This document shows, piece after piece, positions 4,454-35,140 of a stretch of DNA of 41,455 nt. This stretch comes from Bacteroidales bacterium (GTDB lineage: Bacteria; Bacteroidota; Bacteroidia; Bacteroidales; F082). The notes below the pieces were generated by a model. That model was given only the letters and a program-made list of their open reading frames with translations. It made no database searches and was not told where the DNA came from. Location: NCBI GenBank assembly GCA_016290215.1, contig JAEETH010000026.1:1-41455 (forward strand). The letters are read 5' to 3'. Made by a program: the position numbers and the translations under genes. Position 1 is the first letter of the stretch. Each line of letters begins with the position of its first letter.

Positions 4454-4460
4454 TTGACTC

Positions 4461-5084
4461 ATGCTTGAACCTAAATTCGATACTTGTTTCTTTGAGCGCT
4501 ATGCCATGGTTTCGCTGGCCACCCTGTTAGGCGAGCCGTATGCGCATTTGGTCAACCGCGACAGGCCTGATTTGCAGGACGAAACGCTTGGCATCGGCAT
4601 TGAGGTCACTCGTGCCATCCGTGAGAACAAGAACGTGGCCAACGCCTTGGTGAACGAGATGGCAGGCGAGGATGTCAAAGAAGTGAATGCCGACGATATG
4701 CGTCACATCAACCAAACGGGTTATGCCTACGGCTTGGGCGACGGCAGCATCGTTGGTCGCAATGAGTACGAATATTGGTCGTTGGCTTTGCCCTTGAAGC
4801 GTATCCTCGAAATCAAGATGGACAAGGTGAACAACGGCTTTTATGGCGATTTCCGCGAGTTTGACCTCTTTGTCTTTACCAAGGAAGACCTCGATGTCGC
4901 CCAAATCCAGCAGACCATCGCCTTCATGCAGGAGAAGCAAGCTTTCCAAAACCGCCTTTATTCGCGCTTGTTTGTCTCTCAGATACAGACCTTGTTCGAC
5001 TGCGACCTCTTCTCGGGACAATACCGGAGATTCAAAGTCAGCGAGGCGCAACGGTGTTATTTTTATGACGAAGCAGTGAAATAA
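4461..5084 (+). CDS. Unrecognised protein translationally coupled to ruvC
   Basis: 207 residues with no signal peptide or membrane segment. I do not recognise the family with confidence. Around residues 34-51 the sequence runs DRPDLQDETLGIGIEVTRAI. An acidic PD followed about 10 residues later by a hydrophobic strand ending in E-V-T is reminiscent of the PD-(D/E)XK nuclease core, but a clear catalytic lysine is missing (T in its place), so this is only a suggestion. The middle (YAYGLGDGSIVGR, LALPLKRILEIKMDKVNN) and an acidic FDLFVFTKEDLD are other landmarks. It starts 7 bases after the esterase. Its stop overlaps the ruvC start in TAATG, which implies coupled translation with the Holliday-junction resolvase. 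Confidence 0.55.
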   Translation: MLEPKFDTCFFERYAMVSLATLLGEPYAHLVNRDRPDLQDETLGIGIEVTRAIRENKNVANALVNEMAGEDVKEVNADDMRHINQTGYAYGLGDGSIVGRNEYEYWSLALPLKRILEIKMDKVNNGFYGDFREFDLFVFTKEDLDVAQIQQTIAFMQEKQAFQNRLYSRLFVSQIQTLFDCDLFSGQYRRFKVSEAQRCYFYDEAVK

Positions 5085-9875: not shown

Positions 9876-10445
9876 CTACTTTAATAAATACGTTATAGCT
9901 TTAGTTTTTAGAAAAGCACAAAATCCAAAACCATTACCTCCTTGCATAATGCCCACGACTCTATCATCTTTAAGTAAAGGACTTCCGCTGCTTCCTTCAA
10001 AGCGTTCGCAATTACAATAGAGATAATTTCCTTCCTCTTTTCCCAATGGATAGGCTGGTACCATAGATAGTCTACATTTGGGATTTAGAGAGGTTGGGTC
10101 TGTTACCTCATGCATACAATAACTTTCAAGTGTTTCACCTTTCTGAGGCATATAATCTGAAAGGTGTAATGGACTATTAATCCCATCAAAATGAACTATT
10201 AGAACATCCAATATGTTTGGATCGTGATAGTCACCCTTGCCGTAATAAAGTGGATTATACTTTGAGAGTTCAATAATTTTGCCATTGAAATTGACTTTAC
10301 ACAAAGGAAAATCATTTAATACATGCGCAGCCGTAATGAAACAACTATCAGCAATAAAGCCTTGTCCGATTATTTCTCCACTATCATGTATGGGAAAAAC
10401 ACAATTTTGTAATTCTAATCCCGTGGGTTTGTAATTCTTTGACAT
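9876..10445 (-). CDS. Trypsin-like serine protease, apparently cytosolic
   Basis: 189 residues from the ATG at 10445 (MSKNYKPTGL); the open frame begins further up at 10481, but this start gives a compact protease domain. The chymotrypsin-fold triad is visible: His41 in CFITAAHVLND, Asp80 in ILDVLIVHFDG, and Ser155 in FEGSSGSPLLKDD. GIMQGGNGFG then forms the last beta-strands. No signal peptide is seen, which is unusual for S1-like proteases outside the HtrA group and fits the stand-alone trypsin domains found in bacterial conflict or signalling systems (established for some systems; applied here by inference). It is AT-rich like its downstream partner at 9072-9836. Confidence 0.75.
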   Translation of the reverse strand: MSKNYKPTGLELQNCVFPIHDSGEIIGQGFIADSCFITAAHVLNDFPLCKVNFNGKIIELSKYNPLYYGKGDYHDPNILDVLIVHFDGINSPLHLSDYMPQKGETLESYCMHEVTDPTSLNPKCRLSMVPAYPLGKEEGNYLYCNCERFEGSSGSPLLKDDRVVGIMQGGNGFGFCAFLKTKAITYLLK

Positions 10446-10558
10446 GAGTATAAGATTTTGTGGGGATTCTCTAATCTTCACTAATTATACAAACACTATC
10501 AATAATCGATTTTCCAAGAACATGATATAAAAGCGTTGGTTTTGCTTAAAGTGTTTTC

Positions 10559-11313: not shown

Positions 11314-12123
11314 TCACAATCCAAACGTCTCAGCCAGTTCTTGCATCTGTGCCTCGCTCATTCCTTCCGGCTCGAAGCCCATGTTGCGGGCACTCATGTA
11401 GATTTGCGCGGCTTTGTTCAGCACATCCACTTGGTCAAAAGCCGCCATGATGTCGGTGTCGACGGCAAACACGCCGTGCTTCTCCCACATCACCACGTCG
11501 TAGCCTTCATCAAGGGTGTTGAGGGTGGCTTCGCCGAGGGCAACGCTCGACGGCAACAAGTAGGGCACAATACCTAAACCTTTCGGACAAAACACCCGTG
11601 TCTCGGGTATCATCGACCAAAGGATTTGGGTCAGCACGTCTTTCTCCAAGAAGGGCCGATGATGCGTCATCGCTACCAACTCGATGGGATGGGTGTGGAG
11701 CGAGGCTTTGTAAGGCGAGCTTTTGCCAATCAGGTAATTGTGAACGCTAAGGTGCGAGGGCAACTCCGAGGTGGGCATCACAGGTTTGTCGGCGATGATT
11801 TCGTAATGGGCGCAGTCGTCGAGGATGCGGATGACGGAGCCGTTGTCCATGGGCCAGCGGGCGAGGTCGCGCATGCGGCGGTTAGTGCCTTTGCAGTAGA
11901 AATAACAGCCTTTTAGGTGGGGCAATGTCGTGCCAATTGGAAGTTGAGAGTTTAGAGTTGAGAGTTTAGAGTAGTTTAGAGTTGAAAGTTGATCGGTGAC
12001 ATTGATGACGATATTGCCGCCGTTGCGCTCGGCCCAGCCTTTCTGCCAAAGATAGCCTGCCACTTCGGCGACCTGGTCGATTTGGTGTTTTAGTTCGGGG
12101 GTGTTGTCAAGTATGCTTTTCAT
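11314..12123 (-). CDS. rhaD: L-rhamnulose-1-phosphate aldolase RhaD
   Basis: 269 residues, class II aldolase family. It splits L-rhamnulose 1-phosphate into dihydroxyacetone phosphate and L-lactaldehyde, the last step of the pathway encoded here. Visible family segments are YLWQKGWAERNGGNI near the N-terminus, KGCYFYCKGTNRRMRDLARW, the metal-binding LHTHPIELVAMTHH and YDVVMWEKHGVFAVD. Around residues 45-61 the sequence is QLSTLNYSKLSTLNSQL, encoded by an inserted word repeat (11941-11992). It occupies a region that, from memory of other RhaD proteins, is a variable surface loop, so the enzyme is probably still functional. It is the last gene of the rha cluster and is followed by higBA. Confidence 0.93.
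   Translation of the reverse strand: MKSILDNTPELKHQIDQVAEVAGYLWQKGWAERNGGNIVINVTDQLSTLNYSKLSTLNSQLPIGTTLPHLKGCYFYCKGTNRRMRDLARWPMDNGSVIRILDDCAHYEIIADKPVMPTSELPSHLSVHNYLIGKSSPYKASLHTHPIELVAMTHHRPFLEKDVLTQILWSMIPETRVFCPKGLGIVPYLLPSSVALGEATLNTLDEGYDVVMWEKHGVFAVDTDIMAAFDQVDVLNKAAQIYMSARNMGFEPEGMSEAQMQELAETFGL
11941..11992. repeat. 14-bp-period word repeat inside rhaD
   Basis: Two units of AGTTGAGAGTTTAG are followed by degenerate copies (AGTAGTTTAGAGTTGAAAGTTGA). The unit is identical to that in the rhamnosidase gene 4.2 kb away. The total insert keeps the rhaD frame open. Confidence 0.85.
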
Positions 12124-12139
12124 TGTTCATTCTTTTTTT

Positions 12140-12212
12140 GACACGGGACGCGGGACTTTGTGACACGGGACAAGTCCAATGTCTCGCGTCTCGCAGTCTC
12201 GTGTCTTGCGTC
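12140..12212. repeat. Inverted word array between MFS gene and rhaD (GACGCGGGAC family)
   Basis: The left arm 12140-12171 is made of GACACGGGAC and GCGGGAC words. The right arm 12181-12212 is made of GTCTCGCGTC and GTCTCGTGTC words. The arms can pair over about 30 bases with a short loop. The array fills nearly the whole 91-bp gap, starting 17 bases from the rhaD start codon and ending 2 bases from the transporter stop codon. The same words recur at 20187-20259 and at the ends of 16436-16557. Confidence 0.8.
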
Positions 12213-12214
12213 CT

Positions 12215-13558
12215 TTAATACTCCTCTCCATAGCGTTCCTTAGTAATTTGTACCAGCGACTTGCCGCGGGTATTGGGGCAGCCGATGACGCCCACAATCA
12301 ACGAGATGAGCAGCAAGCCAATCATGCAATAGGCGGCCACGGTGAAGCCTTCGCCGTTTTCGCCATAGATGAAAGCGAACACCAGCCCCCATACAGCCGA
12401 CAGTCCTCTGACGACGAAGAACATCAGTCCTTGTGCGCCAGCGCGGAACTTGGCGGGAAACAGCTCCGAGCCCCATAAGGCGTAGAAGATTTGTACTGAC
12501 ATACCGCCTTCGATGCCCCATAGGATGGTGAACAGCCACAGCCCCGCTGTGCCATTCACGCCGACGGCCACAATAATCACCCACGCACTGATGGCAAAGA
12601 GTAGACCTAAGATATAGATTAGTTTATGACTTGTCCTATCGATGACCTTGGAGAGCAGGAAGGTGACGAACACGATGATGGCCCATTGGATGCAGTTCAT
12701 CCAGTTGGCTTGTTCGTTGCTGATGCCACCTGCTGTTTCATAGATATGCGGTTGGAAGAAGCCCAACACCGAGGCTACGAGATTCCAGGTGAGGTAAATG
12801 ACAGCCAAGAAACAAGCGGTCTTGATAGCGGTTTTGTTGGAGAACAACACCTTGAAGGCGTGCCAAAGACCAGTGTCTTCGCCTTTGGCCTTGGCTACCT
12901 CTTGGCTGGTTTTCCACTCGGTGCTTTCCTCCAGTTTGCGCTGTAGGTTCCATGCGATGAATGCCACAATCAGCAATGAGAAGAAGACGATGCGCGAGCT
13001 GAACACGTTGACGGCTTCTGTGGACAAGCCGTCGCCGCCAAAGGTGTGCGCTATGCTTTCGACCCAGCCGAACAGATAGCCGTCGGGGGCGAAGAACATG
13101 CCCAACAGCAGGATAATCATCGGGCCGAAGCCCCACGACATTTGGGAGATACAGATATTACGACCGCGTTTGTCGTTTTCGGAGCTTTCGGAGATGTAGG
13201 TCCATGAGGCCGGCACGCCGATGCCTACCGAGATGCCCGTCACTAAGAATCCCGCCAACAGCATCGGGAAGCTGACGGAGAGCATGATGAGCAGCACGCC
13301 CACCATGTAGACGAGCAGGTTGTAGGTGTAGATGAACTTGCGCCCGTATTTGTCGGCCAAGAAACCGCCGATGATGGCACCGAGGGCGGCACCCAAACAG
13401 TTGGCACTGATGAAGTTGAGCCAGCCGAGATGCACCTCGGTGAGGCCCAGGTATTTCTGCCATAGCGTCAAGCCACTGGCTCCTGCGACGATGGCACCGG
13501 CATCCAAGTAGTTGGTCAGCGAGACGGCGATGGTACTTTTTAGGCTTCCTTTATTCAT
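12215..13558 (-). CDS. MFS sugar transporter, probable L-rhamnose importer
   Basis: 447 residues with about 12 hydrophobic spans, typical of the major facilitator superfamily sugar-porter branch. The loop between spans 2 and 3 has GGFLADKYGRKFIY, the MFS signature. GIGVPASWTYISES and WGSELFPAKFRAGAQGL match sugar-porter motifs. Its place between rhaA and rhaD makes L-rhamnose, or another deoxysugar from the same polymers, the likely substrate. This is inference, because the usual transporter in such clusters is RhaT, a different fold that is absent here. Gaps on both sides are filled by inverted word arrays. Confidence 0.85.
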   Translation of the reverse strand: MNKGSLKSTIAVSLTNYLDAGAIVAGASGLTLWQKYLGLTEVHLGWLNFISANCLGAALGAIIGGFLADKYGRKFIYTYNLLVYMVGVLLIMLSVSFPMLLAGFLVTGISVGIGVPASWTYISESSENDKRGRNICISQMSWGFGPMIILLLGMFFAPDGYLFGWVESIAHTFGGDGLSTEAVNVFSSRIVFFSLLIVAFIAWNLQRKLEESTEWKTSQEVAKAKGEDTGLWHAFKVLFSNKTAIKTACFLAVIYLTWNLVASVLGFFQPHIYETAGGISNEQANWMNCIQWAIIVFVTFLLSKVIDRTSHKLIYILGLLFAISAWVIIVAVGVNGTAGLWLFTILWGIEGGMSVQIFYALWGSELFPAKFRAGAQGLMFFVVRGLSAVWGLVFAFIYGENGEGFTVAAYCMIGLLLISLIVGVIGCPNTRGKSLVQITKERYGEEY

Positions 13559-13643
13559 TGTTTAATTGTTTGGTGTTGAATTGTTTAATTGTTGTTTGAG
13601 GCGGGTCAAACGATTCAACAATTAAACAATCAACAATTCAACA
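13559..13643. repeat. Inverted word array between rhaA and the MFS gene (TTGTTTAATTG family)
   Basis: The left arm, about 13559-13600, repeats TTGTTTAATTGTT and TGTTGAATTG. The right arm, 13606-13643, carries the complements (TCAAACGATTCAACAATTAAAC). The array fills the entire gap. It starts next to the transporter ATG (13558) and runs across the rhaA stop codon (13638-13640). Confidence 0.85.
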
Positions 13644-14891
13644 TCTTTTCACTGTCACTTCTTTTTCATATTGCTGTATCCTTCCGATAAACTCCTCACC
13701 GACAGGCACATCATTCTTCAAATTGAAGTAGTCGTAGACGGCACCAAAGGGCAGGGATTTCATCTCTTCCATCAAGGCTAATTTCTCGAAACCTTGTCCC
13801 TTGTCTTCATATTGGCGCAGCAAATCAAGCGGCTCCAACAAGGCTTGCAGTAGGCATTTCTGCGTGGCGCGGGTGCCGATGAGGTAGGCACCTATTCTAT
13901 TAATGGAGGTGTCGAAGTAGTCGAGGCCGATATGGGCGCGGTGGAGGGCTTCGGCGCGGACGATTTCCTTGAAGAGGTCGAGGGTCTGGTCGTTCATGAG
14001 GGTCACATGGTCGGAGTCCCAGCGGATGGGACGGCTGACGTGCAGCATCAGCTCGGGCACATAGAGTAACAGCGACGAGACCATGTCTGACACATTCTCC
14101 GTGGGTTCGTAGTGACCTGTATCAAGGGTATAGATGACCTTACGTGTAGCACAATAGCCCGCGTAGAAGTCGTGCGAGCCGACGGTAAAGCTCTCCAAAC
14201 CGATGCCGAAGAGTTTAGCCTCGACGCAGGATTTCATGTCGGGCAGGTCTTCGGCCAAGATTTCATCCAAGGATTCGGCCAATAGCTCACGGTAGCGTTT
14301 GCGCTTCACGGTGAGGTCTTTCAATCCGTCGTGTACCCAGATGTTCATGATGCAGGGGTCACTTTGTGCCTTGCCCATGGCATCGGCGATGCGGCGACAG
14401 CGTTTGGTATGCTCGATCCAGAAGGCGCGGATGGCTGGGTCGGGGTTAGCCAAACTCAAATCTCCGCTTTTGGGATGGCCGAAGGAGGTGCTGTTGAAGT
14501 CGAGCTTCATGTCCACCGCTTTGCCCCAGTCGATCCAGCTCTGGAAGTGCTCTACGCCCACTTGGTCGCGGTCGACAAACTTACAGCCGAAGTCGCCGTA
14601 GATTTCGTGCAGGTTGACGCGTTGCGTTCCTGCGAGCAGCGAGTTGACGAACTCGAGGTCGGCGCGCACTTCGTCGATGGTGCGGGCGCGACCAGGGTAG
14701 TTACCCGTGGTCTGGATGCCGCCTGAGAGGCCGGCGTTGCTCTCGAAGCCCATCACATCGTCGGTCTGCCAGCAGTGCAGCGAGATGGGGGTATTCTCGA
14801 GGGTGGCGATGGCTTGGTCTGTGTCGATGCCGAGGGCGGCGTAGCGTTCCTTGGCGAGGGTGTAGGCGTTGAGGATGTTTTGTGTGTTCAT
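13638..14891 (-). CDS. rhaA: L-rhamnose isomerase RhaA
   Basis: 417 residues, the standard length. It converts L-rhamnose to L-rhamnulose, the first step of the pathway, in a metal-dependent TIM barrel. Recognisable parts are ALENTPISLHCWQTDDVMGF-like sequence near the N-terminus, GNYPGRARTIDEVRADLEF, NLHEIYGDFG, a metal-site segment with LDFNSTSFGHP, IWVHDGLKDL, YTLDTGHYEPTENVSDM and IRWDSDHVTLMND. The C-terminal codons run into the inverted word array at 13559-13643, which contains the stop codon. Confidence 0.95.
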   Translation of the reverse strand: MNTQNILNAYTLAKERYAALGIDTDQAIATLENTPISLHCWQTDDVMGFESNAGLSGGIQTTGNYPGRARTIDEVRADLEFVNSLLAGTQRVNLHEIYGDFGCKFVDRDQVGVEHFQSWIDWGKAVDMKLDFNSTSFGHPKSGDLSLANPDPAIRAFWIEHTKRCRRIADAMGKAQSDPCIMNIWVHDGLKDLTVKRKRYRELLAESLDEILAEDLPDMKSCVEAKLFGIGLESFTVGSHDFYAGYCATRKVIYTLDTGHYEPTENVSDMVSSLLLYVPELMLHVSRPIRWDSDHVTLMNDQTLDLFKEIVRAEALHRAHIGLDYFDTSINRIGAYLIGTRATQKCLLQALLEPLDLLRQYEDKGQGFEKLALMEEMKSLPFGAVYDYFNLKNDVPVGEEFIGRIQQYEKEVTVKRC

Positions 14892-14909
14892 AGGTTGGTG
14901 GTGTTAAGA

Positions 14910-15011
14910 GCAGGGACTCACATCGCCTGCTATGGGTCTATTGACTCTTGGTGTAAGAGCAGGGACTCACGTCGCCTGCTTACCGATGTGTCGCTCCTAC
15001 GGGGCTGGGTT
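14910..15011. repeat. REP-like elements, two copies, between rhaB and rhaA
   Basis: GCAGGGACTCACRTCGCCTGC occurs at 14910-14930 and 14959-14979. Each can fold as an 8-bp stem (GCAGGGAC with GTCCCTGC-like partner) with one bulged G and a TCAC loop. The end of the element, TCGCTCCTACGGGGCTGGGTT at 14991-15011, matches 30269-30289 beside the transposase at most positions. This tail supplies the rhaB stop codon. Confidence 0.85.
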
Positions 15012-16421
15012 GTATGTCTTTGTTTCAAAGTTTTGTGCTATCATCTTACGCATGGCCCAACGGTCGCTGACGAGTCCTGCGGCCTTGGCTTGGACCATGA
15101 GGTTGCCAATGGCGGTGGCTTCGGTAGGACCCGCCACTACGGGTATGCCGATGGCGTCGGCAGTCCATTGGTTCAGCAGGTCGTTGGCAGAGCCGCCACC
15201 GATGATGTGCAGCTTCTCGATTTTGAACGGCGCGACTTCTTGCAGCATGTCCAATACCGCTCTATAGCGCTCTGCAAGGCTGTGATAGATGCAGCTGAGC
15301 ATTTCGCCAGCACCATTCGGGGCGGTATACCCGTTTTCTGTCAGTGCTTTGCTGATTTCCGCTTCCATGTCGGCGGGATTGGCGAAACGTGGGTCGTCGG
15401 GGTTGATGCGGCCTGCGTAAGTTTTTGCCGATTGCGCCATCTTGGTCATTTCGTCATAACTATAATCGTGCCCTTGCGCTATCCATTTCTTGCGGCATTG
15501 CTCCACGAGCCACATCCCCGTGATGTTCTTCAGGAAGCGTGTGGTGCCTTCGATGCCACCTTCGTTGGTGAAGTTGAGCCGCGCCGACTGTTCGGTGATG
15601 ATGGGTTCTGGTATCTCAATACCCATGAGGCTCCAAGTGCCGCTGCTGAGGTAGGCAAAATGCTCGTTTTCGGCAGGAACAGCAACAATGGCTGAAGCGG
15701 TGTCGTGACCAGCCACAGCCACCACAGGTACTTCGCCCAAGCCCGTCTCCTTGGCGATATTGAACCTTAATTTGCCAACGATTTCGCCAGGTTGAACCCT
15801 GTCGGGTATCTGGTCTTCTGTGAGACCTACCGCAGCCATCAGCGAAGACTCAAACTGTTGTGTTTTGGGGTTCATCAGTCCTGAGGTGGAGGCGATGGTA
15901 TATTCACAGACTTTACCGCGCGTCAACAGGTAGGCGAGGAGGTCGGGCATGAAGAGGATTTTTTTGGCATGACGGTAGGCCACACTGCCTTCCTCGGCTT
16001 GAGCGAACATCTGGAAAACCGTGTTGAAGTTCATGATTTGGATGCCCGTCAAAGCATAAAGCTGTTCACGAGGAACGATCTTGAAGAACTTTTCAGGAAT
16101 GCCGTCGGTGTAAGGGTCGCGGTAGGCGCGAGGCAAGCCCAACAGTGTGCCGTCATGGCCGATGCAGCCAAAGTCGACGCCCCAGGTGTCGATGCCGATG
16201 GAGTCGAGGGTGATGTGGCGTTGGCCCAATTCCTTGAGGCATTTCAGGAGATGCTCGTAGATGCTATATACATTCCAGTAGTACTTGCCTCCGATTTCGA
16301 GGGTCTGGTTGGGAAAACGATAGACCTCCTCCATGCAGAAGCTGCCGTCAGTGAAGGTGCCAAGGATGGCCCGTCCGCTGGTGGCGCCACAGTCGAAGGC
16401 AAGGAAACGTTGTTGGCTCAT
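14997..16421 (-). CDS. rhaB: L-rhamnulokinase RhaB
   Basis: 474 residues, FGGY carbohydrate kinase family. It phosphorylates L-rhamnulose to the 1-phosphate for RhaD. Visible motifs are the N-terminal ATPase phosphate-1 loop AFDCGATSGRAILG, the substrate-side IGIDTWGVDFG, VAGHDTASAIVAVPA, SSGTWSLMGIE and the C-terminal IIGGGSANDLLNQWTADAIG with PTEATAIGNL. Length is typical. The last codons (YNPAP, stop) coincide with the tail of a REP-like element, so the original C-terminus may have been slightly altered. It is transcribed towards rhaA. Confidence 0.95.
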   Translation of the reverse strand: MSQQRFLAFDCGATSGRAILGTFTDGSFCMEEVYRFPNQTLEIGGKYYWNVYSIYEHLLKCLKELGQRHITLDSIGIDTWGVDFGCIGHDGTLLGLPRAYRDPYTDGIPEKFFKIVPREQLYALTGIQIMNFNTVFQMFAQAEEGSVAYRHAKKILFMPDLLAYLLTRGKVCEYTIASTSGLMNPKTQQFESSLMAAVGLTEDQIPDRVQPGEIVGKLRFNIAKETGLGEVPVVAVAGHDTASAIVAVPAENEHFAYLSSGTWSLMGIEIPEPIITEQSARLNFTNEGGIEGTTRFLKNITGMWLVEQCRKKWIAQGHDYSYDEMTKMAQSAKTYAGRINPDDPRFANPADMEAEISKALTENGYTAPNGAGEMLSCIYHSLAERYRAVLDMLQEVAPFKIEKLHIIGGGSANDLLNQWTADAIGIPVVAGPTEATAIGNLMVQAKAAGLVSDRWAMRKMIAQNFETKTYNPAP

Positions 16422-16435
16422 GGTGTTATTGTTTT

Positions 16436-16557
16436 GACGCGAGACTTTTTTTGACTATGACCAATGACTATGACCATGACAGCTTTTTTGTAAGTTGTGC
16501 TGTCATATCTTCTGTAAAAGTTGTCATAGTCATTGTCACAAGTCATAGTCTCGTGTC
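16436..16557. repeat. Nested inverted word array between GH97 gene and rhaB
   Basis: The outer arms are GACGCGAGAC (16436-16445) and GTCTCGTGTC (16548-16557). Inside, GACTATGACCAATGACTATGA words on the left are mirrored by TCATAGTCATTGTCA words on the right, and AGC...GCTGTCAT closes the centre. Two word families are thus nested in one structure of about 120 bases. It occupies most of the 158-bp gap. Confidence 0.85.
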
Positions 16558-16579
16558 TTGTTTTGTTTATTACGCTGAA

Positions 16580-18604
16580 TTAGAACACCATCACGGCACC
16601 GCCGCCTTCGGCGAGATGGAACTTCACCTTGTTGCCCATCACTTGGATTTGTTCCGCCACATAGTCGCGGGCGGCGCGGTTGGCATTGATGCCGTCGCGG
16701 AAGATACGTCCCGACTTGGCGCCGAAGTTGGGCAGCACCGAGAGGTCGAGCTCAATGTTGCGCTCCTCCCAGTTGGTGATGGCACCTATGTACCAGCGGA
16801 AGTCCTTGCGGCGGGCAATAACGATGTATTCACCCACCTTGCCATCCAAGACGATGGTTTCGTCCCACGTGGTCGGCACGCTGGCGATGAACCGCGTGCA
16901 TTCGTCTTCTCTTATGTAGTTGCTCGGGCTGTCGCACAGCATGTTGAATGGCGACTCATATATCACATATTCAGCTAATTGTCTACAGCGTGTGCCTTGG
17001 CTCATCGGCTCGGTGTAGATGGCTGTGAAACTGTATTTTCCCGCATTTCTCATGGCTCCTTGGGTGTAGTCCATAGGTCCGGCCAACATGCGGATGAAAG
17101 GTATGGTGACTTCGTTGGTGACAAAATCGCTCTTGGAGTCCCAACGTTCCTGTTCCATGCCGTACACGCCCTCGTGGTTGAGCACATTGGGATAGGTGCG
17201 GTTCAGCCCCGTGGGTTTGTAGGCGCCGTGGAAGTCGATGAAAAGATGGTATTTGGCGGCAGTTTTGGCCATGCGGTAGTAGAAATCGACAATCATCTGG
17301 TCGTCACCGTCCATAAAGTCGACTTTGAAGCCTTTTATGCCCATTTCGGAATAGTGCTGGCATACGTGTTCCATGTCTTTGTCCATGGCGGCGTAACCGG
17401 CCCAAAGCACGAGGCCTACATTGCGTTCGGCACCGTATTTGACAAGTTCCGGTAAGTTGATTTCGGGTATCACCTGGAAGAGGTCGGCTTGCTTGTTGAC
17501 GGCCCAACCTTCGTCGAGGATGACATACTCAATGCCGTATTGGCTGGCAAAATCAATGAAGTATTTATAGGTCTCGTTGTTGATGCCTGCTGCGAAGTCA
17601 ACGCCGTAAAGGTTCCACCAGTTCCACCAGTCCCAAGCCACCTTGCCGGGTTGAATCCAAGAGACGTCACCGATGCGGTTGGGTGAAGCCAAGAGATAGA
17701 CCAAGTCGTTGTCGGCCAGTTCTTTGTCGTTTTCCGAGATGGTGATGATGCGCCAAGGGAACGAACGTTTACCCTCCACTTTGGCGATGTAGTTCTCGCG
17801 TTCCTTCACAATCCATTGCAGGTTGTTGTGGCCGCCTTGTTCGCGGGTCTTGGGATAGCCTGCGTGGTAAGCATGCAGCACTTTGGAGGGCAACGAGTTG
17901 CGAAGATACATCCCAGGATAATCTTCCAAGTCCGCCTCAGTGATGACGGCTTTCTTGCCATCCTTGAGCTCGATGAGTAAAGGTAAGAAGGCCAATCGGT
18001 CATATTCCATCTTGCTCAATGGCGTGACGGTATAGGTGTTTTCAAAAGAATTGTAAAACTGCTGTTCGATGAAGTTGCCATCGCCTTTGCGGGCGTTGAC
18101 ATAAGGCACCCATGCCGTGTAATCCTCATCAAATTTAAATTCGACGAATTCGCGAATCACCTTGAAAGGCTTTTTGAAATCGGTCTGAAAGCGATAGGCA
18201 ATGCCTTCGTTATAGGCGCGGAAAATCACCTTATAATTCCCTTTAAAACTGAGTGTCAGTTCGTTATATTGGTCTTGAATTTCAGCTCTCTTGTAAAAAG
18301 GAGCTTTGACAGTTTGATTTACGGATTGAGTCTTGGCCGTAATGATGGATGGTTTTGAGGAAATACCAAGTGTTTTGCCGTTATCAATTTGCATGAATAT
18401 TGCCGACTTGTCCAAGACGGCGGTTTCTTCGTGTTTTATGGAATAGTATAACCAATACTCAGATTGTTCGGAATTCATCTCACATATCTCATCTTCTGAG
18501 ACAGTCACGGTGATTTTTCCATTGGGCGATTGCAATGTGTACTGCTTTTGTGCAAAGGCGCTCACGCAAAGCAAAAGGAGCGCAGAGAGGAGGAGTTTTT
18601 TCAT
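16580..18604 (-). CDS. GH97 family glycosidase, probably retaining alpha-galactosidase type
   Basis: 674 residues from the ATG at 18604, which begins the signal peptide MKKLLLSALLLLCVSAFAQ; an upstream in-frame start is rejected. The N-terminal beta-sandwich has SPNGKITVTVSEDE and NEGIAYRFQT. The barrel has WIQPGKVAWDWWNWW, YVILDEGWAVN, GIKGFKVDFMDGDDQ and FHGAYKPTGLNRTYPN. GH97 contains both inverting SusB-like and retaining enzymes. From memory the retaining nucleophile is an Asp in KVDF, here Asp429, and an acid/base Glu lies 55 residues later, here Glu484 (GMEQ). This points to the retaining alpha-galactosidase branch. It lies directly upstream of rhaB and may share its transcript, suggesting a substrate with both rhamnose and an alpha-linked hexose. 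Confidence 0.9.
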   Translation of the reverse strand: MKKLLLSALLLLCVSAFAQKQYTLQSPNGKITVTVSEDEICEMNSEQSEYWLYYSIKHEETAVLDKSAIFMQIDNGKTLGISSKPSIITAKTQSVNQTVKAPFYKRAEIQDQYNELTLSFKGNYKVIFRAYNEGIAYRFQTDFKKPFKVIREFVEFKFDEDYTAWVPYVNARKGDGNFIEQQFYNSFENTYTVTPLSKMEYDRLAFLPLLIELKDGKKAVITEADLEDYPGMYLRNSLPSKVLHAYHAGYPKTREQGGHNNLQWIVKERENYIAKVEGKRSFPWRIITISENDKELADNDLVYLLASPNRIGDVSWIQPGKVAWDWWNWWNLYGVDFAAGINNETYKYFIDFASQYGIEYVILDEGWAVNKQADLFQVIPEINLPELVKYGAERNVGLVLWAGYAAMDKDMEHVCQHYSEMGIKGFKVDFMDGDDQMIVDFYYRMAKTAAKYHLFIDFHGAYKPTGLNRTYPNVLNHEGVYGMEQERWDSKSDFVTNEVTIPFIRMLAGPMDYTQGAMRNAGKYSFTAIYTEPMSQGTRCRQLAEYVIYESPFNMLCDSPSNYIREDECTRFIASVPTTWDETIVLDGKVGEYIVIARRKDFRWYIGAITNWEERNIELDLSVLPNFGAKSGRIFRDGINANRAARDYVAEQIQVMGNKVKFHLAEGGGAVMVF

Positions 18605-18625
18605 AATGATTAGGATTTGTGCAGG

Positions 18626-18657
18626 CAAAAATAGAAAAAATGACACAAATCACCAAA
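18626..18657 (-). promoter_or_regulatory. Promoter upstream of GH97 and probably the rha genes
   Basis: TATTTTTG (18633 to 18626, minus strand) is preceded by TTTG (18657 to 18654) with 20 bases between. It sits in the one gap of this minus-strand run that lacks a word array, between trkH and GH97. The -7 element is 22 bases before the start codon. Confidence 0.55.
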
Positions 18658-18714
18658 AATGCTGAAATTGATGAAATTTCTTCTTTTGTTGCTTAGCTCT
18701 GTGGTTTTTAGGTA

Positions 18715-20178
18715 TTAATTCCTCCAAAAACTCCGCGAAAGCAGCGTAATCAAAGAGAAAAGCTCCACCCTGCCGAGAATCATCATGAGCATGAGAATCC
18801 ATTTGGCGAAGGGCGTGAAGGCGACATACGAAAAGCCGAGTCCTACCTTTCCCATGCCCGTGCCCACGTTGCTCAAGGAGGCAATCGAGGCACTGATGGC
18901 CATGTTGAAATCGGCACCCGAGAAGAGTAGGATGACGCTGCCGGCGATGAACACTAAAAAATAGATGAAGATGAAAGTGATGTTTTTGCTGACCCCACTT
19001 GAGGAGATGGATTTTCCGTTGACCTTCACGGGCAATATGGCGTTGGGGTGGATGATGCGTTTTAGCTCAAGCATTGCGTTTCGTGTGAAAATCAAGTGGC
19101 GGAAGATTTTAATGCCGCCCGAGGTCGAACCCGAACAGCCTCCGATAAACATCAGTATTAATAGGATGGTCCACAAGAAGGTAGGCCAAGCCATGTAGTC
19201 GCCCACGAAGAAGCCTGTGGTGGTCAGCGAGGAGATGACGCTGAAGAACGACTGGCGGAAGGCTGTGCCGAGACTCATGTGGCGGGCAAAGAGCAGCACC
19301 AGTCCGATGGCGATGCCGAGCACTATGATGTAAAGCAGGAAAGTCTTGAATTCCTGGTTTTTGAAGATGGAGAAATGTTTCCTGCCCATCGAAATCAGTA
19401 GCAATGAGAAGTTGCATCCCGACAGCACCATAAAGACACTCACCACCACTTGCGAGTAGTTGGAGAAGGCGCCAAGGCTCTCCGTTCGGGTGGAGAATCC
19501 TCCTGAACTGATGGTAGTCATCGAGTGACAAAGTGCGTCAAAAAAGTCCATGTCGCCCCAATAGAGCAATAATGTCTCCAAAAGGGTGAAAAACAAATAC
19601 AAGCCCCAAACGCGCCAAACGGTGTGCATGATGCGGGGGTGTAGCTTGTCGTAGTTGATGTCATTAATCTCGGCCACAAAGAGTTGCATGCCGCTCATGC
19701 CGAGATAGGGCAATATGGCGATGGTGAAAACGATGATAGCGAAGCCGCCCATCCATTGGGTCATGCTGCGCCAGAGTAGGATGTCTTTGGGCAGGCTTTC
19801 GATGCGGGTCATGATGGTGGCACCTGTGGTGGTGAAGCCCGACAGCGCCTCAAAGAAGCCGTCAGTGAAGTTGGGCACGCTCTTGCTGAGCAGGTAGGGC
19901 ATGGCGCCGAAGAGCGATAGTATGAGCCACGAGACGCAGACGATGTAAACGCCGTCGCGCGAGGTGGTTTTGTCGTTCTTGTGGTTGCGTGTGGCGATGA
20001 CAAAGATGAACCCTGTCAGCAGGGTGATGAGGGCCGAAAAGGGCATACTGAAGGCATACAGCCCATGGTGGAAATAGGTTGCGGGGAGTACCGTCAGCAT
20101 CAAAATGCCTTCGATGAGCAGCAGCTGGCCTTCGATGCGGAGGACTAAGGGGTGGTTTATTTTAGTTTTCCACTTCAT
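18715..20178 (-). CDS. trkH: Trk-type potassium uptake membrane subunit TrkH
   Basis: 487 residues, polytopic inner-membrane protein of the Trk/Ktr/HKT superfamily. The four pore-loop repeats are seen as SGFTTTGATI, TTISSGGFSTR, SSLTTTGFFVG and ASLSNVGTGM, each with the selectivity-filter glycine. MTQWMGGFAIIVFTIAILP and FIGGCSGSTSGGIKIFRHL are strong TrkH signatures. It forms the K+ channel gated by TrkA, encoded just upstream. The two genes are separated by an inverted word array. Length and ends are normal. Confidence 0.95.
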   Translation of the reverse strand: MKWKTKINHPLVLRIEGQLLLIEGILMLTVLPATYFHHGLYAFSMPFSALITLLTGFIFVIATRNHKNDKTTSRDGVYIVCVSWLILSLFGAMPYLLSKSVPNFTDGFFEALSGFTTTGATIMTRIESLPKDILLWRSMTQWMGGFAIIVFTIAILPYLGMSGMQLFVAEINDINYDKLHPRIMHTVWRVWGLYLFFTLLETLLLYWGDMDFFDALCHSMTTISSGGFSTRTESLGAFSNYSQVVVSVFMVLSGCNFSLLLISMGRKHFSIFKNQEFKTFLLYIIVLGIAIGLVLLFARHMSLGTAFRQSFFSVISSLTTTGFFVGDYMAWPTFLWTILLILMFIGGCSGSTSGGIKIFRHLIFTRNAMLELKRIIHPNAILPVKVNGKSISSSGVSKNITFIFIYFLVFIAGSVILLFSGADFNMAISASIASLSNVGTGMGKVGLGFSYVAFTPFAKWILMLMMILGRVELFSLITLLSRSFWRN

Positions 20179-20186
20179 CGTTTCTT

Positions 20187-20259
20187 TGACGCGGGACTGC
20201 AGGACACGGGACTGTGGGACTAAATCCGTCTCGCGTCTCGCGTCTCGAGGTCTCGTGTC
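20187..20259. repeat. Inverted word array between trkA and trkH (GACGCGGGAC family)
   Basis: The left arm 20187-20220 has GACGCGGGACT, GGACACGGGACT and GTGGGACT. The right arm 20228-20259 has GTCTCGCGTCTCGCGTCTCG and GTCTCGTGTC. These are the same words as at 12140-12212, 8 kb away, in a different register and copy number. It begins 9 bases from the trkH start codon. Confidence 0.8.
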
Positions 20260-20289
20260 TTATATGGCTTTCAAAATTAATCACGATAA

Positions 20290-21630
20290 TTAATGAAACA
20301 AACGTTCAACCGCAGGGATGCCATTGGGCAGGGCCAACACCACCACTTGGTCGTCGGCTTCGATTTGGAAGTCGTCGCTGGCAATGAAGCTCTCGCCATC
20401 GCGGGTGATGCCACAGATGATGGCATCGAGGGGCATGGCTAACTGGCCTATGGTCTTCCGTGTGACGGCAGAGCCTGCCCTCACCTGGAATTCCACAATG
20501 TCGGCGTCGATGCCGCTGAGGCTCTTCAGCGTGGAGACTTTGGCGCCGAGGGTGTATTTCACCATGTAGCTGGCCGCGATGAGTTTCTTGTTGATGATGG
20601 AGTCGATGCCGATGTTCTGCGAGATGTCGATATAGTCGATGTTCTCGACGAGGGCGATGGTCTTCTTCACACCGAACGACTTGGCCTGAAGGCAGGTCAG
20701 GATGTTGGTTTCGGTGTTGTCGGTGACGGCGATAAAGGCGTCCATGTCTTTGATGCCCTCGTCTTCAAGCAGGTTGAGGTTGCGGGCATCGGCGTTGACG
20801 ACCAAGGCTTCCGAGAGGTAGTTGGTCAAGTCCATGCAACGCTCTTTGTCAAGTTCCAAGATTTTGATGTTCAGGTCTTTCTCAAGGCGTTTGGCGGTGA
20901 TGCGACCCACACGTCCACCGCCCACAATCATCACGTTGTGGACGTTGATTTGTTTCTTGCCACTCAGCTTGATGATGTCTTTGATGGCGTGTGGCTTGGT
21001 GACCACATACACCATGTCGGCCACTTGAAACACCTCATCGCCTTGTGGGATGATGGTATTTTGACGGCGGTGGATGGCGGCGATGCGGAATTCGATGTGT
21101 TCGTATTGGTCGACGACCTCGTCGACAGTCTTGCCAAGGATTTCAGCCTCAGGTTCCAGTTTCACCATGAAGAGTTGGAGGTTGCCGCCTGCAAAGTCGT
21201 AGGTTTCCGACGATGCATTTTTCTTCAATAGCGAGATAATCTCTTGTGCGGCAATGTCTTCAGGAGAGAGCAGTCCGTCGATGCCGAGGTCTTGGTACAT
21301 GCGCCATACCTCGGGGCTGAGGTTTTCCATCGTGTTGACGCGGGCGATGACCTTCTTCGCGCCTAATTTCTTGGCGATGATGCCTGTCAGCAGGTTGATG
21401 TGCTCGTCGTGAAGCACGGCAATCATCAGGTCGGCCTTTTTCACGTTGGCGCGTTGTAGCACTGCGGTCGAGGTGGAGTCGCCTGTAACGGTCATCAGGT
21501 CGGTGTGCGATTCCATCATCTTCAGCAGCTCCTCGTGTGGGTCCACGATGGTGATGCTATGGTTGCTACGCACCAAGGCTTCCGCCAAGTGCATGCCTAC
21601 TTCTCCGTCTCCGGCTATAACGATGTTCAT
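20290..21630 (-). CDS. trkA: Trk potassium uptake regulatory subunit TrkA
   Basis: 446 residues. Two tandem RCK modules are visible. The first Rossmann fold starts MNIVIAGDGEVGMHLAEAL; the second starts VMIVGGGRVGRITAKRLEKD at about residue 230. Each is followed by an RCK_C domain; the one at the C-terminus ends DDQVVVLALPNG. TrkA is the cytosolic nucleotide-sensing ring that gates TrkH. It is first in the trkA-trkH pair and has its own promoter at 21658-21691. Confidence 0.95.
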   Translation of the reverse strand: MNIVIAGDGEVGMHLAEALVRSNHSITIVDPHEELLKMMESHTDLMTVTGDSTSTAVLQRANVKKADLMIAVLHDEHINLLTGIIAKKLGAKKVIARVNTMENLSPEVWRMYQDLGIDGLLSPEDIAAQEIISLLKKNASSETYDFAGGNLQLFMVKLEPEAEILGKTVDEVVDQYEHIEFRIAAIHRRQNTIIPQGDEVFQVADMVYVVTKPHAIKDIIKLSGKKQINVHNVMIVGGGRVGRITAKRLEKDLNIKILELDKERCMDLTNYLSEALVVNADARNLNLLEDEGIKDMDAFIAVTDNTETNILTCLQAKSFGVKKTIALVENIDYIDISQNIGIDSIINKKLIAASYMVKYTLGAKVSTLKSLSGIDADIVEFQVRAGSAVTRKTIGQLAMPLDAIICGITRDGESFIASDDFQIEADDQVVVLALPNGIPAVERLFH

Positions 21631-25137: not shown

Positions 25138-25242
25138 GGGCTGTAGGGCTGTCGTATCACGGCCTGGGCTGTAGGGCTGTCGTATCACGGCAGCCGTATG
25201 GTTAATCCGATTAATGCGGCTGCCACAATGTGACAGCCCTAC
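25138..25242. repeat. Tandem repeat plus long hairpin between convergent genes
   Basis: An identical 25-bp unit (GGGCTGTAGGGCTGTCGTAT, then CACGG) occurs at 25138-25162 and 25166-25190. The second copy begins a long hairpin: GTAGGGCTGTC (25171-25181) pairs with 25232-25242 and GGCAGCCG (25189-25196) pairs with 25217-25224, with TTAAT/ATTAA in the loop. It fills the 117-bp gap between the barrel gene and the beta-helix gene and may terminate both. Confidence 0.8.
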
Positions 25243-25250
25243 AAGCCAGA

Positions 25251-29351: not shown

Positions 29352-30029
29352 TCGAAACGCCGTCCAAGGTGCGACTTCGGGCAATGGAGCCGTGATTTCG
29401 AGTTGTTCTTTCGTCACGGGATGTTCGAAGGCGATGCGCCAGGCGTGTAGGCTGATGGAGGCATCGGGGTTGCTGCGCGGATAGCCATATTTCAAGTCAC
29501 CACGGATGGGGCAACCGATATGCGCCAGCTGGCAACGGATTTGATGGTGACGACCTGTAAACAATTCTACCTCAAGTAGATAAAAAGTTTCTGATTTCCC
29601 GACCACACGATAACTCAGCCGTGCTAATTTGGCTTCCTTTGTGCCTTCGGGCACCACAAACGACTTGTTCATCTTCTCATTCTTGACGAGGTAGTCCTCA
29701 AGCACGTCGGCTTGCTTGGGCGGATGGTTCTTCACGAGAGCGAGGTAGGTCTTTCGGAAGTCACGGTCTTTCACCTTCACCGTCATGCGCGAGAGGGCTT
29801 TGCTCGTCTTGGCGAAGACGACGGCGCCACTCACGGGGCGGTCGATGCGGTGGACGAGTCCGGCAAACACGTTGCCCGGCTTGTCATACTTCACCTTGAT
29901 GTATTCCTTGACATCATCGAGGAGGCACACGTCACCCGTCTTGTCGCCCTGCACGATCTCAGAGGGGAGCTTGTTGACGATGATAAGATGATTGTCCTCG
30001 TATAGGATTCTATCTGCTATATTATTCAT
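29349..30029 (-). CDS. RluA-family RNA pseudouridine synthase
   Basis: 226 residues from the ATG at 30029 (MNNIADRILYEDNHLIIVNK); an upstream in-frame start would lie in the REP array and is rejected. It isomerises uridine to pseudouridine in rRNA or tRNA. The catalytic Asp is in GLVHRIDRPVSGAVVFAKTS, the RluA motif II. VELFTGRHHQIRCQLAHIGC, PIRGDLKYGYP and SLHAWRIAFEHP are typical later motifs. There is no S4 domain, so it belongs to the short RluA subgroup; the exact target base cannot be assigned. Confidence 0.9.
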   Translation of the reverse strand: MNNIADRILYEDNHLIIVNKLPSEIVQGDKTGDVCLLDDVKEYIKVKYDKPGNVFAGLVHRIDRPVSGAVVFAKTSKALSRMTVKVKDRDFRKTYLALVKNHPPKQADVLEDYLVKNEKMNKSFVVPEGTKEAKLARLSYRVVGKSETFYLLEVELFTGRHHQIRCQLAHIGCPIRGDLKYGYPRSNPDASISLHAWRIAFEHPVTKEQLEITAPLPEVAPWTAFR

Positions 30030-30040
30030 GGTCTTGTTGT

Positions 30041-30285
30041 TAGAGCAGGGACTCATGTCGCCTGCTTACGGGTTGTCAGCTTCTATTTAAGAGCAGGGAC
30101 TAACGTCGCCTGCTTACGGGTTGTCTGCTTCTGTTTTAAGAGCAGGGACTTACGTCGCCTGCTATGGGTTGTCAGCTTCTGTTTAAGAGCAGGGACTCAT
30201 GTCGCCTGCTATGGGTTGTCAGCTTCTGTTTAAGAGCAGGGACTCACGTCGCCTGCTTATAGGTCTGTCGTCCCTACGGGACTTG
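30041..30285. repeat. REP array, five tandem units of about 48 bp
   Basis: GCAGGGACTNANGTCGCCTGC cores start at 30045, 30093, 30142, 30189 and 30236, a spacing of 47-49. The linkers are also conserved (GGGTTGTCAGCTTCTGTTTAAGA). The last unit ends with the palindrome GTCCCTACGGGAC (30271-30283). Each core folds into an 8-bp stem with one bulged G. The array lies directly downstream of the transposase gene. Confidence 0.9.
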
Positions 30286-30286
30286 G

Positions 30287-30736
30287 TTAGATGAGATAGC
30301 GTTCGTCGAACTCAATGCCGTTTTCTTTCAAAAACTGTATGAACTCGTCACGAACTGATACTTCATGATGATGTTGCTCTTGGGTTTCTATATAGTGTAT
30401 AGTCTTTTTCAGTAGGGATGGGCTGACGCAGAACGCGCCATAGCCTTCTTGCCATGCGAAAGTCTCATAATACTCGTCAACGGTTTTTATCCATTTGCTA
30501 CTGTTAGCCTTGATTTTCTGGACGAATTCGGACACGCTCATAGTCTTGGGCATGGTAGCTAAGATATGGATGTGGTTGGTGATGCCGCCAACGTTAATAG
30601 GGTATCCGCCTACATTCCGTATTATGCCTCCGATGTACGCAAAGACCTGTCCGAGGTCTTTCTGGCGGATGGTAATTCCGGTGCTTTTGACGTGGAAGAC
30701 GATGTGGATGTTGAGTTTTGTGTATGTGTTAGCCAT
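30287..30736 (-). mobile_element. REP-associated tyrosine transposase (RAYT, IS200-like Y1 family)
   Basis: 149 residues from the ATG at 30736 (MANTYTKLNIHIVFHVKSTG). It is a HUH single-strand transposase: His55 and His57 form the HUH pair in GITNHIHILATMP, and Tyr99 in WQEGYGAFCVSPS is the likely nucleophile. The end, FLKENGIEFDERYLI, is common in the Bacteroidetes Transposase_17 subgroup. RAYTs are domesticated or semi-mobile enzymes that act on REP palindromes (family knowledge). Here the gene is flanked by REP arrays on both sides (30041-30285 and 30774-30992), and its stop codon falls at the edge of a repeat. No second IS200 gene or target duplication is seen. Confidence 0.9.
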
Positions 30737-30773
30737 GGTCTTTAGGTTTTTATTATGTTCATTGTTCAGGCAT

Positions 30774-30992
30774 GCCTGGCAGGGACTCACGTCGCCTGCT
30801 TATAGGTCTGTCACCACTACGGGGTTCCGCCTAGTCCCGTAGGGACGGCATATCAGTATGCAGGCGACGTGAGTCCCTGTTTTCGAGTCAAGGCGACGTA
30901 AGTCCCTGTTTTTCGAGTCAAGTCCGCCACTACAGTTGAGTCCCGAAGGGACGACACAGAACTCGTCTACTCTAGTGTAGTCCTTTAGGGAC
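30774..30992. repeat. REP array upstream of the transposase, mixed orientations
   Basis: A direct core lies at 30779-30799 and inverted cores at 30860-30880 and 30890-30909. A second palindrome type, GTCCC-NNN-GGGAC, occurs at 30834-30846 and 30940-30952, with a degraded one at 30980-30992, each followed by GRC. Direct and inverted cores facing each other resemble the BIME arrangement of enterobacterial REPs. Confidence 0.85.
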
Positions 30993-34880: not shown

Positions 34881-34887
34881 TGTATTA

Positions 34888-35035
34888 AGTTATTAGTTTA
34901 TAGTTGTTCAGTTGTTCAGTTTGCAGTTGTTCAGTTGACTATGACTTGTGAACATGACCATAACAACCACACCAAAAGGTGAAGTTAGTAGCCTGGGTTG
35001 AATGGGTCATGGTCATAGTCAATGGTCATAGTGCA
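34888..35035. repeat. Word array in the metG leader (GTTGTTCAG and ATGAC families)
   Basis: 34888-34937 consists of GTTGTTCAGTTGTTCAGTTTG and similar words. From 34937, GACTATGACTTGTGAACATGA and CCATAAC are mirrored by GGTCATGGTCATAGTCAATGG and TCATAGT at about 35008-35032. The ATGAC words are the same family as in 16436-16557. The array lies between the probable -7 element and the start codon, so it would be transcribed. Confidence 0.75.
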
Positions 35036-35047
35036 TGATAACGCCTG

Positions 35048-35055
35048 CAAAAATA
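35048..35055 (-). promoter_or_regulatory. -7 element of metG
   Basis: TATTTTTG (35055 to 35048, minus strand) lies about 170 bases before the metG ATG and 36 bases beyond the terminator at 35091-35122. No upstream TTTG is convincing. Confidence 0.4.
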
Positions 35056-35090
35056 CGGATAATTGTTGATATGTCGTTTTGGGCAGTAAA

Positions 35091-35122
35091 AAAAAGCGCC
35101 ACCCATGCGGGCAGCGCTTTTT
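35091..35122. terminator. Rho-independent terminator after the Fn3 protein gene
   Basis: AAAAAGCGC (35091-35099) pairs with GCGCTTTTT (35114-35122), with an inner CCC/GGG pair. On the minus strand the stem is followed by a run of eight or more T. It lies 19 bases past the stop codon at 35141 and insulates metG. Confidence 0.85.
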
Positions 35123-35140
35123 GCATTAATCAATGATTTC

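Follow-up and report, generated by a model that had tools for sequence, protein, structure and literature searches.

Hairpin-forming word arrays in the gaps of a Bacteroidales rha/trk gene run are present, absent or exchanged at the same junctions of related genomes

Introduction

Cyanobacterial short tandemly repeated repetitive (STRR) sequences are degenerate heptameric repeats, and Rickettsia palindromic elements insert in frame into coding sequence. Here we analyse arrays of short degenerate words, most of them hairpin-forming, that occupy the spacers of a rha/trk gene run in a Bacteroidales genome (G000; 3.8 Mb in 153 contigs). The run lies on contig C72, whose whole 41,455 b are called the window; other loci or stretches read are labeled L and genomes G. 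The close relatives are Bacteroidales metagenome-assembled genomes, and we infer that the window's genome is a member of the same genus. We propose, with a probability of about 0.7, that the gap fillers form a genus-specific pool of dispersed hairpin repeats, similar to miniature inverted-repeat transposable elements (MITEs) and to inverted doublets of repetitive extragenic palindromic (REP) sequences (REPINs), which settle in permissive junctions, are repeatedly exchanged and are in some cases then constrained.

As in the system of REPINs and REP-associated tyrosine transposases (RAYTs; Bertels and Rainey, 2011, PMC3116915), the elements are short, dispersed and extragenic with inverted arms around a variable loop, and a RAYT gene (window 30287–30790) is flanked by its own REP, which is that of the rhaB>rhaA gap. 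Unlike that system, the arms are degenerate heptad arrays, the rhaB>rhaA REP copies are direct rather than inverted, and only two RAYTs were found in the genome, beside their own REPs and not beside the word hairpins. BrickBuilt of Porphyromonas gingivalis (PMC4596501) is likewise a Bacteroidales MITE with terminal inverted repeats around short tandem repeats, intergenic and lineage-restricted. It carries one 23-nt direct repeat and IS5-like ends, whereas here one TA-flanked end pair encloses different heptad hairpins. The GGGAATC and GGGGAYT repeats of Xanthomonas and Nostoc (PMC4692102) share degenerate 7-nt units and a mostly non-coding location with our arrays. As here, inverted cases occur, and the prominent heptamer repeats were not found next to the same genes when two Xanthomonas species were compared. 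They are, however, G-rich rows of one word, whereas here many word families, mostly inverted hairpins, are swapped at fixed junctions. Intercistronic operon hairpins with a proposed mRNA role are also formed by Escherichia coli REPs (PMC12306157) and bacterial interspersed mosaic elements, which differ from the several unlike families per genome and per junction found here. In the open-licence PMC literature, as far as its available portions extend, no account came to light of heptad hairpins that replace one another at the same junctions. In one genus, 50 instances of one junction and several other junctions show how intercistronic DNA is turned over as ready-made hairpins are gained, lost and swapped, even within the reading frame of a gene, and there are signs of later constraint on some of them. 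Since junctions exist in filled, empty and swapped versions, whether REP-like intercistronic hairpins are parasites or working parts of mRNA can be tested directly by comparing versions of one operon.

Results

Word arrays in the gaps of the rha/trk run

The run consists of trkA, trkH, GH97, rhaB, rhaA, a major facilitator superfamily (MFS) permease gene and an aldolase-II gene (rhaD). The Pfam families fit these names, which an earlier note had assigned from the sequence, and all seven genes lie on the - strand, so that the co-directional order described there holds. The same note had described five gaps as filled almost wholly by inverted arrays of words or by REP elements, with different words in different gaps. 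The features of the gaps are as follows.

20188..20259, - strand: trkA>trkH gap (20179–20289), hairpin array of GACACGA/GACACGG heptads, detected by lag-7 period and fold z
18626..18633, - strand: TATTTTTG, -7-like promoter box of the GH97-rha unit, read directly and also present in L021
16436..16557, - strand: nested hairpin in the GH97>rhaB gap, outer GACACGA words and inner TATGAC words, arms 16523–16550 and 16453–16480
14905..14931 and 14954..14980, - strand: two direct 27-nt REP copies of the AAGCAGGCGACGTGAGTCCCTGCT family, 49 nt apart, in the rhaB>rhaA gap
13559..13643, - strand: AACAATTA/TTGTTTAA hairpin array filling the rhaA>MFS gap and overrunning the rhaA stop codon (fold z -6.3)
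12133..12214, - strand: MFS>rhaD gap, hairpin array of GACACG heptads, detected by period, inverted repeat and fold z

Each gap was compared with 200 dinucleotide shuffles for its ungapped inverted-repeat score, period score and fold z. Inverted arrays of 7–8-nt words with imperfect arms are present in four of the five gaps. The GH97>rhaB gap has an inverted-repeat score of 21.8 (0/200 shuffles), a period matched by 6/200 and a fold z of -10.0; the values are 1/200, 1/200 and -6.3 for rhaA>MFS and 1/200, 2/200 and -4.5 for MFS>rhaD. The trkA>trkH gap is marked by a period score of 14.0 at lag 7 (0/200) and a fold z of -3.0, its ungapped inverted repeat reaching only 20/200. The fifth gap, rhaB>rhaA, shows no word array above chance (44/200 for the inverted repeat, 146/200 for the period, fold z -2.5); in place of inverted words it holds the two direct REP copies. 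The filling is complete at rhaA>MFS (79/79 nt) and partial at MFS>rhaD (74/91), GH97>rhaB (122/158) and trkA>trkH (72/111). The words do differ between gaps: GACACGR in trkA>trkH, MFS>rhaD and the outer part of GH97>rhaB, TATGAC-type words in the inner part of the latter, and TTGTTTAA/AACAATTA in rhaA>MFS.

The trkH>GH97 gap (18605–18714), which had been singled out as holding a promoter instead of an array, shows no visible array and contains the promoter-like TATTTTTG, which we take to fit the Bacteroidetes -7 box consensus. Its lag-9 period score, however, exceeds all 200 shuffles; its inverted repeat is matched by 11/200, and its fold z is -2.0. The run is probably two transcription units, because trkH and GH97 lie 0.8–5.6 kb apart in five of the six relatives that have both genes on one locus.

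The location of the hairpins between genes would suit ordinary intrinsic terminators or transcript ends, yet we regard this explanation as extremely improbable. A scan for GC-rich stems followed by a T run, limited to loops of 3–8, gives 10 terminator-like sites in 11314–20400 against 9.2 in shuffles and none in the five gaps, and downstream of the hairpins the sequence is A-rich and leads to an ATG. A known RNA family was considered as well, and an Rfam scan of the window gave 0 matches at the gathering score.

Exchange of arrays at fixed junctions

When the same gene junctions are compared in same-genus genomes, as the earlier note had proposed, arrays are found present, absent and exchanged. 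Array families were sorted by eye; at the rha/trk junctions, duplicates of one genome were counted once and G019 at rhaA>MFS was scored from hit spacing. Vertical inheritance of the same arrays, which that note held would tell against it, is seen among some relatives only, and otherwise the arrays are absent or replaced. At rhaA>MFS, four of 12 genomes carry the window's array (one as a 101-nt variant), two have another spacer (55 and 64 nt) and six have 0–1 nt. At MFS>rhaD, 11 genomes comprise three with the window's array, one with a REP-like filler, one with another word row, five with 3–6 nt and one that is unclear. Among 17 GH97>rhaB loci, the window's array is found in two, ATCTTGA heptads in two, another 77-nt sequence in three and 13–20 nt in ten; among six trkA>trkH loci, one has the window's array, two have other sequence (L020, L038) and three have 2–3 nt (L014, L019, L021).

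Two further junctions extend the comparison. On L113 of the window's genome (junction 9978–10543), four tandem TATGAC elements, 105 nt apart, lie between one MITE end pair at 10042–10530. The corresponding junction was read in 10 genomes (the spacers of G010 and G014 were left out). Five have no array, with short leaders in G018, G022 and G012 and longer ones in G040 and G019, and the other five contain four kinds of filler: besides the TATGAC elements of the window's genome, G045 and G021 carry TGGC-word hairpins, G016 a REP and G047 ACGGATT words.

The second junction, reached via the AACAATTA hairpin of rhaA>MFS, leads from a HlyD-type membrane-fusion gene to an AcrB-type (resistance-nodulation-division, RND) pump gene, both assigned by Pfam. 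The first 30 junctions are the best-scoring loci, which favours a spacer of ~100 nt; 20 more from 19 genomes were then added, more distant listed genomes being left out. Of these 50 junctions, 31 hold hairpins, which belong to several families, 10 hold heptad rows that form no hairpin, and nine are empty (1–12 nt). The best-scoring 30 hold AACAATTA (8), GAATGC (6), ACGAATT (4), AACTCCT (3), AGCCATC with ACTGAACA (2), TTCTTACT (2), REP, GAGACGC and CCCCTGCGGGG fillers (one each) and two empty junctions. Their 26 hairpins have fold z values from -1.4 to -8.0, and the two TTCTTACT fillers form no hairpin (+1.4 and -1.6). The 20 further junctions consist of seven with 1–12 nt, eight hairpinless heptad rows (fold z -1.0 to 0.5, period score 11–23 at lag 7) and five structured fillers. 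In a single case, the hairpin has one heptad less per arm in G091 (L288) than in G021 (L286), the loss being matched in both arms.

On the trees of the two flanking genes, the filler family changes at least 17 and 19 times among the first 30 junctions. On a tree of the joined 400+400 nt, 17 changes are needed, against a mean of 20.1 for shuffled labels, with 3/200 shuffles as low. The slightly lower count indicates some inheritance along with much exchange. Absent, shared or replaced at fixed junctions, the arrays are not a fixed operon-specific device.

A proposed genus-specific pool of dispersed repeats

The genome-wide sample of gaps covers 730,628 bases of the window's genome (the window and 60 stretches), with gaps of <30 or >500 nt dropped and period lags of 6–9 tested. 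The open reading frames come from a simple greedy script, so that the gap classes are approximate, and the convergent gaps will include true terminators. A period score of ≥10 is found in 42/188 co-directional gaps (2.2 expected from shuffles), 8/52 convergent gaps (0.0) and 5/72 divergent gaps (0.8), and most listed periodic gaps have a lag of 7 or 8. Inverted repeats with a score of ≥14 are found in 50/188 (0.2), 20/52 (0) and 8/72 (0), respectively. Either feature marks 74/188 co-directional gaps compared with 11/72 divergent ones (p 0.0002). Tandem degenerate intergenic 7-mers, as in STRR sequences, are thus frequent (the 42/188 gaps against 2.2), yet not in direct orientation only, for inverted arms occur in the window's arrays and in 31/50 HlyD-AcrB junctions. 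The filling pattern described in the earlier note is real and wider than thought. A signal specific to this operon was rejected because the same pattern is found genome-wide, and an operon-specific regulatory reading is not needed to explain it.

The TATGAC arm has 58 matches in its own genome, 25, 14, 12 and 6 in four same-genus genomes and 1–2 in five. It is absent from the other 50 of the 60 genomes searched, with no genome outside the genus positive and a reversed control giving 0 throughout. A phylum-wide spread of the AACAATTA word found no support (41 matches in its own genome, 0–2 in each of the other 295 sampled). The GACACG, TATGAC and AACAATTA hairpins of the window recur at unrelated loci. 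The left arm of the rhaA>MFS array is 30/30 identical, by eye, to that at the HlyD-AcrB junction (L272), and the MFS>rhaD array is matched at 83–96% over 73–83 nt by every one of the 13 GACACG copies examined from other genomes. Seven of these 13 lie clearly between MITE ends, three do so in diverged or one-sided form and three are not enclosed, as judged by eye.

This recurrence bears on an origin in place, in which replication slippage would grow heptads before a start codon and template switching would make the inverted arm, with no mobility. Hairpinless rows and similar-word hairpins at the same junction (the CTCACTCCTAACTCC row of G073 and the hairpin of G104) and word numbers that differ by whole heptads (G021 and G091; G000 and G040) would fit such a process. 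The same long arms at unrelated loci in several genomes, 30/30 and 83–96% identical as given above, do not, and we consider this origin distinctly unlikely.

MITE ends and REP/RAYT copies

A fuzzy pattern search of three genomes found 33 imperfect MITE end pairs (25 in the stretches of the window's genome, seven in G047 and one in G021), 137–358 nt in length with a median of 192. They have the form TA|AGTAGATG..GTTACT|TA, with TA on both sides in 26/33 pairs, and 26/33 enclose the TATGAC arm. The same ends enclose different words, namely TATGAC, GACACG and AGCCATC. An empty site in the same genome (L157 compared with L113) reads TTTGT-TA-TTAAAA against TTTGT-TA[element]TA-TTAAAA; this copy has AGCCATC-type words, and its flanks match at 93% over 69 nt and 95% over 40 nt. 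The elements thus share terminal inverted repeats and a TA target duplication with one empty site, as in MITEs. Transposases of the IS630 type (PF13358) and of PF01609 were considered as drivers, the two families covered by the search, and found no support.

The REP of the rhaB>rhaA gap has a likely mover, with these features.

30287..30790, - strand: RAYT gene (Y1_Tnp, PF01797 at 30380–30724, 64.6 bits), candidate mover of the rhaB>rhaA REP, by profile match
30019..30264, - strand: five tandem REP copies, 47–49 nt apart, on one side of the RAYT gene, read from the sequence
30779..30912, both orientations: REP copies, some inverted and some direct, flanking the RAYT gene opposite the tandem copies, read from the sequence

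This REP has 17 genome matches with ≤2 mismatches, of which seven surround the RAYT gene and two lie in the gap; the copies on its two sides fall at 30044–30258 and 30778–30881. The flanking copies make it most likely that the family is moved by the window's RAYT. Both gap copies lie on the - strand, and an inverted doublet of the REPIN type is not found in the rhaB>rhaA gap. The second RAYT found in the genome, on C88 (L168, around 4063–4524), is flanked by a different REP with the core CCCCTACGGGG, by eye. In the window, rhaB ends in a similar sequence (CCCCGTAGG).

Taken together, the distribution suggests that the arrays come from a pool of repeats, mobile or at the least dispersed, by which gene borders are resettled. 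The pool would comprise short non-coding repeats, mostly hairpin-forming: heptad or octad hairpins (GACACG, TATGAC, AACAATTA, GAATGC, AGCCATC, AACTCCT and others), REPs and single heptad rows. Part of the pool moves as the interior of a TA-flanked MITE, as the end pairs and the empty site show. The repeats would settle where tolerated, in the stop-to-start spaces of same-strand genes and, in the case of rhaD, within a variable part of the coding sequence without loss of frame. At such places fillers are gained, lost or replaced, so that different species show different families at one junction. For the solitary rha word arrays, which lack MITE ends, likely routes of entry are remnants of MITE interiors, interspecies recombination and local heptad slippage. 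Constrained copies may work in the mRNA as hairpins between cistrons, followed by a leader that precedes the next start codon.

Several observations weigh against this reading. The rha/trk arrays of the window have no MITE ends, and the empty sites of rha arrays in relatives show no clear target duplication. No transposase with MITE ends was found: PF13358 has no match in 10 genomes, none of the eight PF01609 places in G000 and G022 has both ends, and G047 and G021 have no PF01609 places. Some inheritance is visible in the 17 family changes at HlyD-AcrB, slightly below the shuffled-label count, and a purely mobile, neutral view leaves unexplained why word arrays outlast four-fold sites.

A heptad row inside rhaD

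One exchange site, absent from the earlier note, lies within a coding sequence.

11939..11991, - strand: in-frame ACTCTAA heptad row in rhaD, in a variable stretch of the protein, exchanged between species

The row is also present in L016, 52/53 nt identical by eye. At the same site, a REP is found in L013, L014, L015 and L035 (an exact 26-mer) and, as judged by protein, in L017; L019 and L020 have CCTCCTACC heptads there and L024 yet another sequence, and every one of these fillers is in frame. The REP in the rhaD of these relatives differs by a single mismatch from the copy at window 25218–25243, and its family (GGCTGCCACANTGTGACAGCCCTACA) has 10 matches with ≤4 mismatches in the 730-kb sample. 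In-frame insertion recalls the Rickettsia palindromic elements, with the difference that the rhaD site holds different elements in different species. A site of this kind plays no part between cistrons, and this speaks for insertion wherever it is tolerated.

Conservation of shared arrays

Where an array is shared, it is well kept. All 79/79 positions of the rhaA>MFS gap agree between the window, L014 and L015, compared with 78–85% identity at four-fold sites of rhaA and MFS. In L035, the GH97>rhaB gap is 156/158 and the MFS>rhaD gap 90/91 identical, with four-fold identities of 80% in rhaB and 70% in rhaD; the MFS>rhaD gap is 85/91 identical in L014. The REP gap rhaB>rhaA is poorly kept (aligned identity 47/62 with L014 and 73/102 with L035; 94/102 with L013). 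At HlyD-AcrB, the arms are 30–33/33 and 35–37/37 identical in six species, whereas the 20-nt loop is 9–20/20 and the four-fold sites are 49–80% identical.

Column variability was compared for the four HlyD-AcrB families with ≥3 carriers, leaving out single-carrier families, G019, G022, G121 and the two TTCTTACT junctions (G074, G066). Paired columns, whose definition by a consensus fold biases them toward conserved positions, vary in 6/54, 6/60, 4/42 and 1/88 cases, and unpaired inner columns in 10/23, 32/48 (gaps included), 5/34 and 22/83. The four-fold sites of the upstream and downstream genes vary in 83/104 and 82/123, 80/135 and 62/137, 62/112 and 56/118, and 54/120 and 48/136, that is, 45–80% upstream and 35–67% downstream. 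Whole arrays are better kept than four-fold sites in all four families, gapped columns aside. The arms are clearly better kept than the loops only in the AACAATTA and ACGAATT sets, where changes lie mostly outside the arms; in the other two, the unpaired columns are kept about equally well (96.3 versus 93.0 and 93.7 versus 91.9 in pairwise identity). Outside this comparison, a two-carrier AGCCATC set varies in 2/40 paired columns. Copies at different loci differ in ways that persist from species to species (CATC at HlyD-AcrB, CACC at rhaA>MFS), an argument against homogenisation inside a genome. On these alignments, some shared word arrays are probably constrained, and mobility alone does not explain their conservation.

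Identical arrays at one junction could instead reflect recent interspecies transfer by homologous recombination. The L272/L273 array is 100/100 identical, with nearby bins raised (28/30, 20/20, 30/31) above more distant ones, and gene trees and array family disagree. However, L272/L274 and others keep arms of 33/33 and 37/37 although the loop is 10/20 and the preceding 20 nt are 14/20, and the flanks beside the rhaA>MFS array are not raised. Recent transfer may explain the L272/L273 identity; as a substitute for constraint in general it seems unlikely.

Strand, folding and an mRNA role

The earlier note had raised roles in mRNA processing, stability or attenuation. These gain support insofar as shared word arrays change less than four-fold sites, and lose it through strand, exchange and the hairpinless rows. 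Folding of the two strands and the unpaired tails were compared after gaps of >300 nt were dropped. In 69 co-directional array gaps, the antisense strand folds better in 44 and the sense strand in 23 (p 0.014), compared with 54 and 46 in gaps without arrays. At HlyD-AcrB, the sense strand is the better folder in 11/28. Selection for a more stable RNA strand found no support, the antisense being more stable in 44/69 array gaps. Of the two unpaired tails, the 3´ one is the longer in 45 versus 22 array gaps (p 0.007) and in 51 versus 41 gaps without arrays, and the last 20 nt before the start have a similar base content with and without arrays (A 0.425 and 0.400). The orientation of the arrays is compatible with translation of the next gene, but nothing indicates selection for a hairpin that is strong in the sense strand.

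Functional intercistronic RNA hairpins, in which a hairpin with an unpaired leader is selected and any family serves (for segmental mRNA stability or for translational uncoupling or coupling), are possible, if somewhat doubtful. Such a function would account for the slow change of shared word arrays relative to four-fold sites (79/79 against 78–85% at rhaA>MFS; the paired columns at HlyD-AcrB), for nearly invariant arms of 33 and 37 nt around a 20-nt loop that falls to 9–10/20 in some pairs, for the longer 3´ tail in 45 versus 22 array gaps and for the lower frequency of arrays in divergent gaps (11/72 against 74/188, p 0.0002). It does not fit the many relatives without an array (6/12 at rhaA>MFS, 9/50 at HlyD-AcrB), the ten HlyD-AcrB junctions with hairpinless heptad rows (fold z -1.6 to +1.4), the better folding of the antisense strand, the exchange site inside rhaD or the poorly kept rhaB>rhaA REP gap (47/62 aligned with L014). 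The paired-column result also carries the consensus-fold bias toward conserved columns, and unpaired columns are about as conserved in 2/4 sets.

A combination with the mobile pool, which we hold to be rather unlikely, is that selection keeps a hairpin with an unpaired leader and freezes its arms, leaving the identity of the hairpin free and resupplied from the mobile heptad hairpins. If so, unrelated elements would take turns in one regulatory slot at operon junctions.

Other observations

Extra DNA of 3.9–4.7 kb separates rhaB and rhaA in three relatives (L016, L017 and L024). At 34881–35140 of the window, two unlike arrays stand side by side, a TATGAC hairpin followed directly by a ACTGAACA octad row.

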